Part shown: piece after piece, positions 12,541 through 19,383 of the stretch
Layout of the letters: each line of letters starts with the position of its first letter
How positions within the stretch are numbered: position 1 is the stretch's first letter
Source: Methylosinus sporium
Lineage (GTDB): Bacteria > Pseudomonadota > Alphaproteobacteria > Rhizobiales > Beijerinckiaceae
Assembly (NCBI RefSeq): GCF_003113265.1
Contig: NZ_PUIV01000030.1
Coordinates: forward strand, 1 to 46,328
Direction: 5' to 3'
Length of the DNA: 46,328 bases
The notes under the pieces: generated by a model
What the model saw: only the letters and a program-made list of their open reading frames with translations
Databases searched by the model: none
Told to the model about the DNA's origin: nothing
Translations under genes and position numbers: made by a program

Positions 12541-12557
12541 TTGACGCGGCGCGTCAA
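12541..12557. promoter_or_regulatory. 17-bp palindrome upstream of phaA
   Basis: TTGACGCG, one base, CGCGTCAA: a perfect 8+1+8 palindrome that overlaps the stop codon of the TetR gene and lies about 100 bp before the phaA start. It could be an operator for phaAB or a small terminator for the TetR gene; there is no T-run. Confidence 0.4.
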
Positions 12558-13087
12558 TTCTTCGGGCGGCGGAGGCCGAATTCGGCGGCGAGCCGCTCCA
12601 ATTCACCCGTCTCGATCTCTGCGAGGCCAGGCTCGAGCAGCGCCCGCAGGCCGAGGCCACGCAGCCGATCGACGAAGCCGGCCGCCGCAGGATCATCCGC
12701 CTCTCGCCCGAAATAGGCGGCGACGCGGCGCGTCAACCCCTGCGCATGGGCGGCGAGGATCGGCCGCAGCTCTTCCTCCTCGCTCGCCCCCAGAACGATG
12801 GCGAGAAAGAAGCGCATCCGCCCGCGTCCGAGCATGAGATTGCGCAGCGTGTCGAAAAGCTCATCGGCCTCCTCGGCTGCGCCCGCGCGCTCGGCGCGAT
12901 CATGCGAGGCCTGCAGCAGAGCGACGAAGAGATCGGCCTTGCGCGGGAAATAATAAGTGAGATGCGACTGCCGCACGCCCGCAGCCTTGGCGACGCGCGG
13001 CTGGGTCAGCGCCTCGACGCCGTCTTTTTCGACGATATCGAGCGCGGCGTTCAATATCCGCTGTCTGACGCTGATTTCCGCCGTCAC
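12554..13087 (-). CDS. TetR-family transcriptional regulator
   Basis: The 177-residue protein has an N-terminal TetR helix-turn-helix (residues about 8-55: RQRILNAALDIVEKDG, then the recognition part VAKAAGVRQSHLTYYFPRK). An all-helical ligand domain of usual length follows and matches no subfamily I can name. It starts at GTG 13087 with GGAAAG upstream. It is divergent from the metal cluster gene at 13264 and lies upstream of phaA on the same strand. Either context could hold its targets. The 17-bp palindrome at 13218-13234, between this gene and the divergent one, is the typical size and position of a TetR operator. That link is inference. Confidence 0.85.
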   Translation of the reverse strand: MTAEISVRQRILNAALDIVEKDGVEALTQPRVAKAAGVRQSHLTYYFPRKADLFVALLQASHDRAERAGAAEEADELFDTLRNLMLGRGRMRFFLAIVLGASEEEELRPILAAHAQGLTRRVAAYFGREADDPAAAGFVDRLRGLGLRALLEPGLAEIETGELERLAAEFGLRRPKN

Positions 13088-13204: not shown

Positions 13205-13234
13205 TTGCCAAACTTGTATTGGTAACTTACCAAT
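13205..13234 (+). promoter_or_regulatory. Promoter with embedded palindromic operator (site 1)
   Basis: TTGCCA at 13205-13210 is a likely -35 element. Seventeen bases later TACCAA (13228-13233) is a possible -10. The perfect palindrome ATTGGTAA-C-TTACCAAT covers 13218-13234, so a bound repressor would block the promoter. The first gene starts at 13264. The same arrangement recurs at 14691-14720. Confidence 0.65.
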
Positions 13235-13263
13235 AATTTCCGGCGATCGAAATGGGGGGCGAG

Positions 13264-13737
13264 ATGAGTTTTTTTCGGAGAGCCGGATGCGGCGCGGCGC
13301 TTTTTTCTCTCCTGCTCGGCGCGAAGGTCGCCGTCGCGGCGGCCGGCGATGACGAAGCAGCCGTAAAACATCTCCTCATGCAGACATTCGACCGTCCCGA
13401 CTCGCCGCTCGCCGTCGAGCCGATCGTCGTCGACGGCGACGTCGCCATCGCCGATTGGGCGCAGGGCGAGCAAGGCGGCCGCGCGCTGCTGCGTCGCAAG
13501 GACGGCAAATGGGAGATTTCGCTCTGCGCCGGCGACGCGCTGAAGCAGAGCGCCTCGCTCGAAAAGCTCGGCCTCGCGCGGCACCGCGCGGAGGCGCTCG
13601 CCGCTTCGCTGGCGACGGCGGAGCGCCGGCTCTCCCCCGCCCTGCTCGAGCGCATGTCGCGATTCGACGGCGTGGTCGCCGTGGACGCCGCCGGCGGCCA
13701 TACGCCGCTCGACCCGCATCATCGCCCGATTCCATGA
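13264..13737 (+). CDS. Copper uptake system-associated periplasmic protein
   Basis: The small protein (157 residues) has a signal peptide (MSFFRRAG, a hydrophobic stretch to about residue 22, then AVA). Its body matches what I recognise as the copper uptake system-associated family of Rhizobiales: AVKHLLMQTFDRPDSPLAV, GDVAIADWAQGEQGGRALLRRKDGKWEI and LCAGDALKQ. The molecular role is not established; it is probably a periplasmic accessory for metal acquisition. An alternative ATG lies four codons upstream at 13252, but only the 13264 start has a purine-rich GGGGGGCGAG upstream. Its stop codon overlaps the ATG of the alpha/beta hydrolase (ATGA), so the two are coupled. Confidence 0.7.
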   Translation: MSFFRRAGCGAALFSLLLGAKVAVAAAGDDEAAVKHLLMQTFDRPDSPLAVEPIVVDGDVAIADWAQGEQGGRALLRRKDGKWEISLCAGDALKQSASLEKLGLARHRAEALAASLATAERRLSPALLERMSRFDGVVAVDAAGGHTPLDPHHRPIP

Positions 13738-14624
13738 CCACGCTCAGCCGACGCGCGCTGCTCGCCGGAACGAGCCTTCTCGCCGCAGCGCCCGCTCTCG
13801 CCGGCGCCGCGACTCAATTCGGCGTTCTCTCGATAGAGCAGAGCGGCGCCGGCGAGCCTCTTGTGCTGATCCCAGGCCTCGCCTGCGGCGCTTGGGCGCT
13901 GGAGGAGATCGCCCTCCGACTTTCCCCGCGCTTCTCGATTCACGCTCTGACGCTGCCCGGCTTCGACGGCCGCGCGCCGATCGAGGCGCCGATGATCCCG
14001 CGCATTTGCGCCGATATCGCGGCCTATGTGGCCGCTCTGAAGCGGCCGCTCCTCGTCGGCCATAGCCTCGGCGCCTTCATCGCGCTGAAGACCACAGCGG
14101 CGCATCCCGAGCTGTTCGGTGGAATTGTCACTCTGGACGGCTATCCGGTCTTCCCCGCCCTCGCCCGCGCGACGGCCGAGGAGCGCGCAGGCACAGCGCA
14201 GCGCCTCGCCGCGCAATTTTCCGCCGGCGCCGGCGATCCTGTCCGCTTTCGAGAGACGCTGCGCGGCTTTCTCGCCGCGCGCATGAACGATTCGCGGCAG
14301 GCCGAGCGTTTCGCCGAGCGCGCCGCACGCAGCGATCCCGCCACGACCGCCGCTTATGTCGTCGAGATGCTGTCGGCCGATCTGCGGCCGGAGCTCGCGC
14401 GGCTCGACGCGCCTCTGCTCGCTCTGGCGGCGACCGATTCCTACCTCGCCGGCCGCAGCGAAGAAGAGATATCGGCCTTTTACGCCAATCTTCTCGCCAA
14501 GGCGCCGAAAGCCTCCGTCCTGCTCTTGCGCGAGGCCCGCCATTTCGTCGCCGTCGATCGGCCGGACGTCGTCGCCGCGGCGATCGAATCCTTCGCCGCC
14601 GGCCTGCGCCTCGGACGCGCATGA
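13734..14624 (+). CDS. Exported alpha/beta hydrolase
   Basis: The 296-residue protein has an N-terminal export signal with twin arginines (TLSRRALLAG, hydrophobic run, ALAGA), consistent with Tat or Sec export. The alpha/beta-hydrolase fold follows, with nucleophile S111 in GHSLG, probable acid D235 in AATDSY and catalytic H270 in ARHF. A lid-like helical insert lies between S111 and D235. The substrate is unknown. It overlaps the preceding gene by four bases and is followed by the second metal-cluster promoter. This places an exported esterase or lipase-like enzyme in a metal uptake unit, recalling periplasmic siderophore esterases; that comparison is inference only. Confidence 0.85.
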   Translation: MTTLSRRALLAGTSLLAAAPALAGAATQFGVLSIEQSGAGEPLVLIPGLACGAWALEEIALRLSPRFSIHALTLPGFDGRAPIEAPMIPRICADIAAYVAALKRPLLVGHSLGAFIALKTTAAHPELFGGIVTLDGYPVFPALARATAEERAGTAQRLAAQFSAGAGDPVRFRETLRGFLAARMNDSRQAERFAERAARSDPATTAAYVVEMLSADLRPELARLDAPLLALAATDSYLAGRSEEEISAFYANLLAKAPKASVLLLREARHFVAVDRPDVVAAAIESFAAGLRLGRA

Positions 14625-14690
14625 CTGTGTCCTCGCGGTCACAACCCTCGGAAATCTCCGTAGCGAGCAGCAGCAGGCGGCCGCTTCGGC

Positions 14691-14720
14691 TTGCCTCGCG
14701 ACTATTGGTCAGTTACCAAG
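14691..14720 (+). promoter_or_regulatory. Promoter with embedded palindromic operator (site 2)
   Basis: TTGCCT at 14691-14696, seventeen bases, then TACCAA at 14714-14719. The palindrome ATTGGT-CAGTT-ACCAAG covers 14704-14720. The distance from the -35-like element to the palindrome is the same as in site 1 (13 bp from start to start). It precedes the DUF2946-like gene at 14768. Confidence 0.6.
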
Positions 14721-17642: not shown

Positions 17643-19383
17643 GCCGCAGCAACGCTCCTGGCCGTTCTTCCCCTCCCTGCCGCAGGCCATGCTGCGCTAC
17701 GACATAGCGGCCGGGCTGACGCTGGCGGCCATCGCCATACCGGAACAGATGGCGACGGCGCGGCTCGCGGGCTTTCCGCCGCAGATCGGCTTTTTCGCTT
17801 TTCTCGCCGGCTCCTTCTCCTTCGCGGCTTTCGGCTCCAACCGCTTCCTCTCCTCCGGCGCGGATTCGACGATCGCGCCGATCTTCGCCGGCGCTCTCGC
17901 TTTGCTGGCGACGCGCGGCACGCCGCAATTCATGGCGCTCGCCTCCTTTCTCGCTCTGCTGGTGGGCGGCATTCTCGTTCTCGGCTTTCTGCTGCGCGCC
18001 GGCTGGGTCGCCGATCTCCTCTCCGTTCCGGTGACGACGGGCTTTCTCACCGGGATCTCGATTCACATCTTCATCTCGCAGCTTCCCGCGCTCATCGGCC
18101 TGCCGAGCGTCGAGGGCAGCGAATTCTATCGCGTCGCCGAAATGGCGAAGCATTGGCGCGAGGCGAATCCCGCGGCCATCGCCATCGGTCTCGGCTCGCT
18201 CGCGACCATTATCATCGGCGAAAAGATCAGCCCCAAGCTGCCGGCCGCGCTGATCGCTCTGGCCGGCGCCGCTTTCGCTGTGCGCTATTTTCATCTCGAG
18301 GAGCGCGGCGTCGCTGTGCTCGGCAAGGTCTCGACGGAATTTCCGCATCCGCGCTTTCCCGAGATCGCGCCCGCCGATATTCCGCAAATCGTCGGTCTCG
18401 CCATCATCATCGCCATGGTGATCATGGTGCAGACGGCGGCGACCTCGCGCTCCTTTCCCGATGAGGAAGGTCGCGCGCCGGATGTCGATCGCGATTATCT
18501 CGGCGTCGGCGCCGGCTGTGTAATGGCAGGCCTCGTCGGCGCTTTCGCCGTCGACGCCTCGCCGCCGCGCACGGCCATCGTTACGGCGACCGGCGGGCGC
18601 TCGCAGCTCTCGTCGATCGTCGCGGCGCTGGTCATCGCGGCGCTGCTGCTGTTCGGCGCCTCACTACTCGAGCATGTGCCCAACGCCGCGCTCGCCGGCG
18701 TATTGATGTTCATCGCGGCGCGCATTTTCCGGCTGCATGTGATGCGCGACATTTTTGCGAAGACGCGCGGCGAATTCGCGCTGGTCGCGCTGACCATGGC
18801 GGCCGTCGTCGCGCTGCCCGTGCAGAATGGCGTGTCGCTCTCCATTCTGGCGTCGCTGCTGCATGGAGTCTGGACGACGACGCGCTCGCGCCTCATCACA
18901 TTCGCGCGCCTGCCGGGAAGCTCGGTGTGGTGGCCTTGCGCATCCAGCGGCGCCGAGCCTTATGGCGAGCGCCTCGAGGGCGTGCTGGTGGCGGCCTTTC
19001 AGGCGCCGCTGTCTTTCCTCAACGCCTATGGTTTCCAGAGCGATTTGCGCGAGGCGATAGAGGAAAAGCCGAAGCTCGTCGTGCTGGAGGCGAGCAATAT
19101 CGTCGAGATCGATTATACGGCGGCGGGCATATTGCGGCAGGCGATCGAGGATTGCCGCGCCGCAGGCGCGGATTTCGCCATAGCGCGGTTCGAATCCGTG
19201 CGCGCGCACGAAGCGCTGACGCGCTTCGGCGTGATGAAAACGCTCGGCGAAGGGCGGTTGTTTCGCAGCGTCGACGAGGCGACGAAAGCGCTCGCGCCCG
19301 ACGCCGTCGCCTCGAAGATAACTGCTCCCACTCTCCTCGCGCGCAAGAGCCGCGCGTTCAGGCCGCCTTCTGCTTCGGCGTGA
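17641..19383 (+). CDS. SulP-family inorganic anion transporter with STAS domain
   Basis: The 580-residue inner-membrane protein has about 10-12 hydrophobic segments, starting with the SulP signature region (AGLTLAAIAIPEQMATARLAGF). It ends in a cytoplasmic STAS domain (about residues 455-560, VVLEASNIVEIDYTAAGILRQ). Family members carry sulfate, bicarbonate or other anions by proton or sodium coupling; the substrate cannot be told from sequence. The ATG at 17641 precedes the conserved N terminus; the frame opens earlier at 17536 without similarity. The 3' end overlaps the convergent asd gene by 26 bp. Confidence 0.9.
   Translation: MPQQRSWPFFPSLPQAMLRYDIAAGLTLAAIAIPEQMATARLAGFPPQIGFFAFLAGSFSFAAFGSNRFLSSGADSTIAPIFAGALALLATRGTPQFMALASFLALLVGGILVLGFLLRAGWVADLLSVPVTTGFLTGISIHIFISQLPALIGLPSVEGSEFYRVAEMAKHWREANPAAIAIGLGSLATIIIGEKISPKLPAALIALAGAAFAVRYFHLEERGVAVLGKVSTEFPHPRFPEIAPADIPQIVGLAIIIAMVIMVQTAATSRSFPDEEGRAPDVDRDYLGVGAGCVMAGLVGAFAVDASPPRTAIVTATGGRSQLSSIVAALVIAALLLFGASLLEHVPNAALAGVLMFIAARIFRLHVMRDIFAKTRGEFALVALTMAAVVALPVQNGVSLSILASLLHGVWTTTRSRLITFARLPGSSVWWPCASSGAEPYGERLEGVLVAAFQAPLSFLNAYGFQSDLREAIEEKPKLVVLEASNIVEIDYTAAGILRQAIEDCRAAGADFAIARFESVRAHEALTRFGVMKTLGEGRLFRSVDEATKALAPDAVASKITAPTLLARKSRAFRPPSASA

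Follow-up and report, generated by a model that had tools for sequence, protein, structure and literature searches.

A palindromic box at two putative promoters and a divergent TetR gene beside CopU and probable CruR-type genes of Methylosinus sporium

The locus and its two boxes

We analyzed a 46,328-nucleotide stretch of Methylosinus sporium DNA (NCBI RefSeq assembly GCF_003113265.1, contig NZ_PUIV01000030.1; hereafter, the window). It carries a TetR-family gene positioned divergently to the gene of CopU, a copper uptake system-associated protein (Table 1). The start of an alpha/beta hydrolase gene overlaps the copU stop, and further downstream a short DUF2946-like ORF heads a unit with the gene of a TonB-dependent receptor (TBDR), which starts 74 nt behind it. 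Two matching palindromic boxes lie within putative promoters, one in front of each unit.

Table 1. Features of the TetR-CopU-TBDR locus in the M. sporium window
Feature	Position	Strand	Basis or remark
TetR-family regulator, 177 aa, GTG start	12554..13087	-	PF00440, 38.8 bits (cut-off 24)
-35-like TTGCCA, putative CopU promoter	13205..13210	+	TTG[CT] 14-15 nt before TTGGT in 32/35 sites
Box 1, perfect palindrome ATTGGTAA-C-TTACCAAT	13218..13234	+	Conserved in 6/6 genomes
CopU, copper uptake system-associated protein	13264..13737	+	NF033672, 136.9 bits (cut-off 50)
Alpha/beta hydrolase	13734..14624	+	PF12697, 69.7 bits
-35-like TTGCCT, putative CruR-receptor promoter	14691..14696	+	Direct reading and geometry count
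Box 2, imperfect palindrome ATTGGT-CAGTT-ACCAAG	14704..14720	+	Conserved in 5/5 sequenced regions, one with a mismatch
Probable CruR-type (DUF2946) leader ORF, 135 aa	14768..15175	+	CLLC-48 residues-RAPP-3 residues-stop
TonB-dependent receptor, 759 aa	15250..17529	+	PF00593 and PF07715

The regulator scores above the PF00440 cut-off, and its AF2 model (mean pLDDT 85.7) is all-helical and matches TetR-family structures in the PDB, with EbrR as the nearest solved chain (TM 0.67). Another of these matches, 9i1x, we take to be CecR of the CecR-YbhGFSR-type systems. The recognition helix region reads VRQSHLTYYF, and the protein finds only itself in its own genome at E<=0.01. For CopU, the AF2 model (pLDDT 79.2; best PDB match E 0.078) points at most to an NTF2- or cystatin-like fold, while the N-terminus of the hydrolase, judged by eye on the translation, looks Tat-like. 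The receptor has YncD and PqqU as nearest solved structures, and a Pfam search detected no signalling domain in it. Its score against TIGR01778, the copper-receptor model, is below the cut-off (20.5 vs. 472.45 bits), and its nearest profiles include siderophore-receptor models, below their cut-offs. No CrtA/BfrG chain appeared among its matches in the PDB copy searched, which may lack CrtA. We also observed a gene for a SulP-type anion transporter (17644-19383) after the receptor gene on the same strand, as in another Methylosinus genome (G002, L014), and this gene might be part of the receptor unit.

The initial annotation described the ORF in front of the receptor as a DUF2946-like gene. Rather than an ordinary first gene, this is, judging from its sequence motifs, probably a copper-sensing leader of the CruR type. 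Its match to PF11162 is full-length but weak (13.3 bits against a gathering cut-off of 23.7; E 0.15), and all seven of its aligned homologues match the same model at E<=10, the best at 4.8e-5. The distance between CXXC and RAPP is 48 residues in Methylosinus and 50 in Methylocystis. Both values are above that of the characterized CruR, which has 45 residues between the motifs, published with a variation of one or two, and three after RAPP (PMC9426467), and this counts against the assignment. In Bordetella pertussis, copper is sensed through CXXC, translation stalls at RAPP and Rho termination is thereby controlled before a TonB receptor gene (PMC9426467). The B. pertussis cruR-bfrG (crtA) system shares with ours the DUF2946 leader, the CXXC motif, RAPP placed three residues before the stop and a TonB-receptor gene as the next one; it differs in the spacing of the motifs (45 vs. 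48 residues in Methylosinus) and in the gap between leader and receptor (162 vs. 74 nt), and the Methylosinus receptor is followed by the SulP gene and not by a PepSY_TM gene (PMC9426467; PMC12914433). A further difference is the TetR-type box upstream of the Methylosinus leader. Among the 78 TetR loci described below, 13 contain CXXC...RAPP ORFs, against 0/78 in reversed sequence; the CruR-like ORF of one locus (L038) is without RAPP in the alignment.

Direct reading gives ATTGGTAACTTACCAAT for box 1 and ATTGGTCAGTTACCAAG for box 2, in agreement with the coordinates and sequences first annotated. The shared geometry holds as well: at both places TACCAA follows the TTGCC hexamer after 17 nt (starting at 13228 and 14714), and the boxes end 29 nt before the copU ATG (with a further in-frame ATG at 13252) and 47 nt before that of the leader. 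When the consensus ATTGGTNANTTACCAA was searched with up to three mismatches, only the two boxes matched in the window, giving four strand hits; shuffled sequence gave a mean of 0.20, with none of 100 shuffles reaching four. Both the lack of a third copy in the window and the improbability of a chance match, as put forward in the initial annotation, are thus borne out. In the whole genome (3,785,845 bases, 55 contigs) TTGGTN5ACCAA occurs at box 1 and box 2 only, and with no third site a wide regulon can be dismissed. Since the reversed control pattern also occurs twice in this genome, uniqueness alone is weak proof, and the argument rests on conservation.

The promoter setting recurs. Of the 35 sites in front of CopU or CruR genes in Methylosinus and Methylocystis, many of them from closely related genomes, 32 have TTG[CT] at a distance of 14 or 15 nt upstream of TTGGT. 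The box covers the promoter spacer and the place of the -10 element, which fits the expectation for a repressor site. TACCAA itself is a poor -10 hexamer, and this counts against the repressor reading.

Distribution of the box and of its TetR gene

We found copU in six of ten Methylosinus genomes and the TetR gene in the same six, always divergent to copU; the other four, among them G007 (86% complete), have no TetR match at E<=1e-15. Box 1 is kept in all six clusters, and box 2 in all five regions that are sequenced (with one mismatch in G004), the contig of the sixth, G009, ending just behind copU. The boxes are thus conserved upstream of the orthologous clusters, a point on which the initial annotation had made its proposal depend. 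The hydrolase gene is missing from one cluster (G003). The loose pattern TTGGTN5ACCAA has 25 sites in the ten genomes, ten at the cluster and 15 elsewhere, as compared to 17 for the reversed control; the arms alone are therefore not special, but their location is. None of the 15 off-locus sites has the inner A..T pair.

Of 60 relatives searched for CopU, nine gave a match. TetR homologues (E<=1e-20) are patchily distributed, with 6 positive genomes out of 149 in the family and 6 out of 397 in the order. Where CopU homologues occur without the TetR gene (G045 and G058), neither version of the palindrome, with a 5-bp or a 6-bp spacer, was detected in the 18 kb around copU. Two loci from other families of the order (L018 and L019) have CopU homologues near CruR-like ORFs, without the TetR gene and without the box. 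The stricter TTGGTAN3TACCAA was found in 31 of 385 genomes of the class, against about 44 for the reversed control, and none of 29 such loci (from 29 of the 30 genomes other than our own) has the TetR gene within 1.5 kb. We thus rejected the palindrome as a class-wide signature.

While the TetR gene and the box stay together, their targets change from genome to genome. The box-CopU-hydrolase and box-CruR-TBDR units of Methylosinus have counterparts in Methylocystis (box-CopU and box-CruR-TBDR), the second box not being seen in L069 and L072. In Hyphomicrobium, Xanthobacter, Metarhizobium, Reyranella and another Rhizobiales MAG the organization is box-TBDR-MFS-methyltransferase-TetR. Ensifer and a Rhizobiales isolate have box-methyltransferase-NAD(P)-binding dehydrogenase-like gene-TetR, Rhizobium box-dehydrogenase-like-TetR, Nitratireductor box-MFS-methyltransferase-dehydrogenase-like-TetR and Devosia box-methyltransferase-TetR. 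Burkholderia paludis possesses box-methyltransferase-(hydrolase fused to CopU)-TetR, and in this box-headed operon the fusion of alpha/beta hydrolase and CopU forms a single ORF (L054:5640-6962). Methylocystis sp. ND1_Bin_1_1 carries two copies of the TetR system (L055 and L072), one with an altered box, TTGGTAGAGTAACAA. Adjoining the Hyphomicrobium operon (L045:1605-7644) we noted two CruR-like ORFs, a CRP-like regulator, a 946-aa ORF with no Pfam match and a di-haem peroxidase.

To survey the spacer, TTGGT-Nx-ACCAA (x = 0 to 12) was scanned at 78 TetR loci from named genomes. These had been found with motifs that include the recognition helix, so that they sample TetR proteins with this helix and not all TetR proteins, and QS[HN]LTYYF is, as expected from this, encoded at 78/78. 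They were divided, post hoc, at a gap in E-value between 2e-35 and 4e-24. In the close group (30 loci, E 2e-35 or better) the exact 5-bp spacer (N5, TTGGT-N5-ACCAA, with the inner pair TTGGTA-N3-TACCAA) is prevalent (27/30), the exceptions being single mismatches in L055 (Methylocystis) and L056 (an unclassified alphaproteobacterial MAG) and a 6-bp spacer (N6, TTGGT-N6-ACCAA, with the inner pair TTGGTA-N4-TACCAA) in L076 (Stappia). The distant group (48 loci, E 4e-24 or worse; L078 and L080-L127 without L081) shows the reverse, with N5 in none and N6 in 46, and in 44 of the 48 loci the N6 box is located either at the start estimated for the TetR gene or no more than 90 bp upstream of it. All other spacers gave 0-4 sites per group. 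In 17 whole genomes with relatives we counted 40 sites of TTGGTN5ACCAA, among them 20 at the TetR locus, against 31 of the reversed control; as counted from the listing, the inner A..T pair is present at 15 of the 20 TetR-locus sites and at none of the other 20. The off-locus sites of the loose pattern, 15 in Methylosinus and 20 in these genomes (controls 17 and 31), are background. Together with the shuffles and the conservation within the genus, the scans of TetR loci lead us to reject a chance origin of the boxes, and both behave like real operators in genome comparison.

The spacer follows the phylogeny of the regulator. Our quick tree of 85 TetR proteins (32 with N5, 49 with N6, two with a mismatched N5 and two without a box) requires a minimum of two changes between N5 and N6, an approximate figure as the program warns of long branches. 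All N5 rows fall in one clade of 38 rows (SH-aLRT 99), in which L078, L049, L048 and L076 have N6. Many alignment columns differ between N5 and N6 proteins, including several in the helix 133-151, His62 and residue 49, which follows the recognition helix; since the history of the clade is inseparable from spacer choice, no cause can be assigned to them. In N6 proteins a hydrophobic residue mostly takes the place of His62. Near the N6-type TetR genes, often downstream of them, we commonly observed genes for HlyD (27 of 48 loci), ABC ATPases (29/48) and permeases of the ABC-2 type (23/48), labels for which one member per cluster was checked in Pfam.

Candidate repressor, ligand and cargo

The divergent TetR gene had been proposed as the nearest candidate for the repressor, and its co-occurrence with the box across genomes speaks strongly in favor of this. 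Judging from these comparisons, the neighboring TetR very probably binds both boxes. We consider it likely that the boxes are its operators, by which it would repress the CopU-hydrolase and CruR-TonB receptor units until released by a ligand, with CruR as a second check. What sequence comparison supports is the conservation of the boxes, the promoter geometry, the linkage of box and TetR gene and the CruR motifs; from here we infer binding, repression, the ligand, the copper cargo and the action of CruR at this locus. A TetR dimer would sit on TTGGTA-N3-TACCAA, of which box 2 has one weaker half-site. There it would cover the spacer and the -10 region of a promoter of the TTGCC type and thereby block RNA polymerase at both units. 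The releasing ligand would probably be an imported metal chelate, a metallophore or its product, and less likely copper itself. As the leader is probably CruR, the receptor may have two layers of control: at low cytoplasmic copper the nascent CruR would stall at RAPP and transcription would continue into the receptor gene, while at high copper the stall would be relieved and Rho would terminate. This copper check would apply to the receptor only.

A regulator encoded elsewhere could in principle bind the boxes with the TetR gene as a mere neighbor, given that divergent or adjacent placement is by itself no proof of binding and that off-locus palindromes exist in several genomes. Yet, the TetR gene and the box remain constant while the targets vary, the palindrome adjoins the start of the TetR gene in 44/48 distant loci and the spacer length tracks the TetR tree with two changes, which makes such a regulator highly improbable. 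It is also unlikely, though less so, that the TetR protein is an activator or a repressor that binds with copper at high copper. Copper-uptake genes would be expected to be off under such conditions, and among 30 aligned TetR proteins His114 is invariant and His62 nearly so; however, they have no conserved cysteine ligands, the fold matches are drug- and metabolite-binding regulators, e.g., EbrR and KstR, and CruR already provides the receptor with a copper shut-off. The overlap of the box with the promoter core speaks against activation.

More weight is due to the nature of the cargo. The locus was initially described as a metal-uptake regulon; it is from the neighbors (CopU by NF033672, CruR) that metal uptake is deduced, and copper is assigned because of CopU and CruR, not because of the TetR protein. 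With binding by TetR granted, the regulon might instead import an organic compound or a metal other than copper, for example by way of an ester-type siderophore or a PQQ-like cofactor; copper would then play a part in the CruR check only, or none. The receptor has YncD/PqqU and, below their cut-offs, models of siderophore receptors as its nearest matches, the hydrolase, methyltransferase and MFS partners resemble small-molecule handling, and the TetR protein lacks a conserved cysteine. On the other hand, CopU and CruR-type leaders recur with the TetR gene in Methylosinus and Methylocystis, CopU does so again in B. paludis, and CruR-like ORFs and a di-haem peroxidase adjoin the Hyphomicrobium operon. 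On balance, we regard a cargo other than copper as less likely than not.

Known systems and implications

Two described systems resemble parts of the proposed regulon. Escherichia coli ComR (YcfQ)-comC likewise combines a TetR-family repressor with an outer-membrane gene tied to copper permeability; however, copper reportedly releases ComR, whose target is a protein that lowers permeability, while the Methylosinus TetR gene stands by an uptake receptor and CopU, and the two are likened by function alone (PMC10141476). MbnT2-MbnI2R2 of Methylosinus trichosporium OB3b, a member of the same genus, includes a TonB receptor that serves copper supply, but there the receptor is reported to be under an ECF sigma/anti-sigma pair acting through its signalling domain (PMC9601215). 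Our receptor has no Pfam match to such a domain, and its neighbors are TetR, CopU, the hydrolase, CruR and SulP; by these neighbors and the missing domain we ruled out a methanobactin receptor system.

The CecR-YbhGFSR-type systems resemble the N6 group, where the TetR gene stands first in front of genes for HlyD and ABC transporters, while the clade of the M. sporium protein appears to have switched to uptake genes. One evolutionary reading, for now tentative and somewhat short of an even chance, starts from a TetR lineage whose recognition helix is invariant and whose distant members probably use TTGGTA-N4-TACCAA to autoregulate ABC operons of the efflux type. This lineage would have been recruited to genes for the uptake of copper or a metallophore, its operator losing one bp between the arms. 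Stacked on CruR in Methylosinus and Methylocystis, it would result in a 'ligand present AND copper low' logic for a single receptor. As helix and arms are unchanged and the spacer is one bp shorter, the change would lie in the geometry of the dimer.

We found no description of the TetR-box pair in the literature on TetR, copper, TonB and CruR, covered mainly through titles and abstracts, and no paper containing the N5 or N6 palindrome strings or the recognition-helix peptides, most subscription papers lying outside these searches; 'copper uptake system-associated' likewise led to no paper. The regulator is of an ordinary type, but it combines an apparently undescribed operator code with a one-bp spacer change inside its subfamily and a position stacked on a probable CruR leader.

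The choice of methane monooxygenase in methane-eating bacteria depends on copper, and to our knowledge little is known about the control of their copper uptake beyond methanobactin. A named regulator with its proposed operator and a small putative regulon provides a testable handle on copper uptake by methanotrophs. As the TetR subfamily keeps its helix and half-sites while the spacing shifts by one bp, it also offers a set of natural variants for testing what structurally determines the choice of spacer, and a likely operator can, by sequence, be assigned to many unnamed TetR genes of Proteobacteria.
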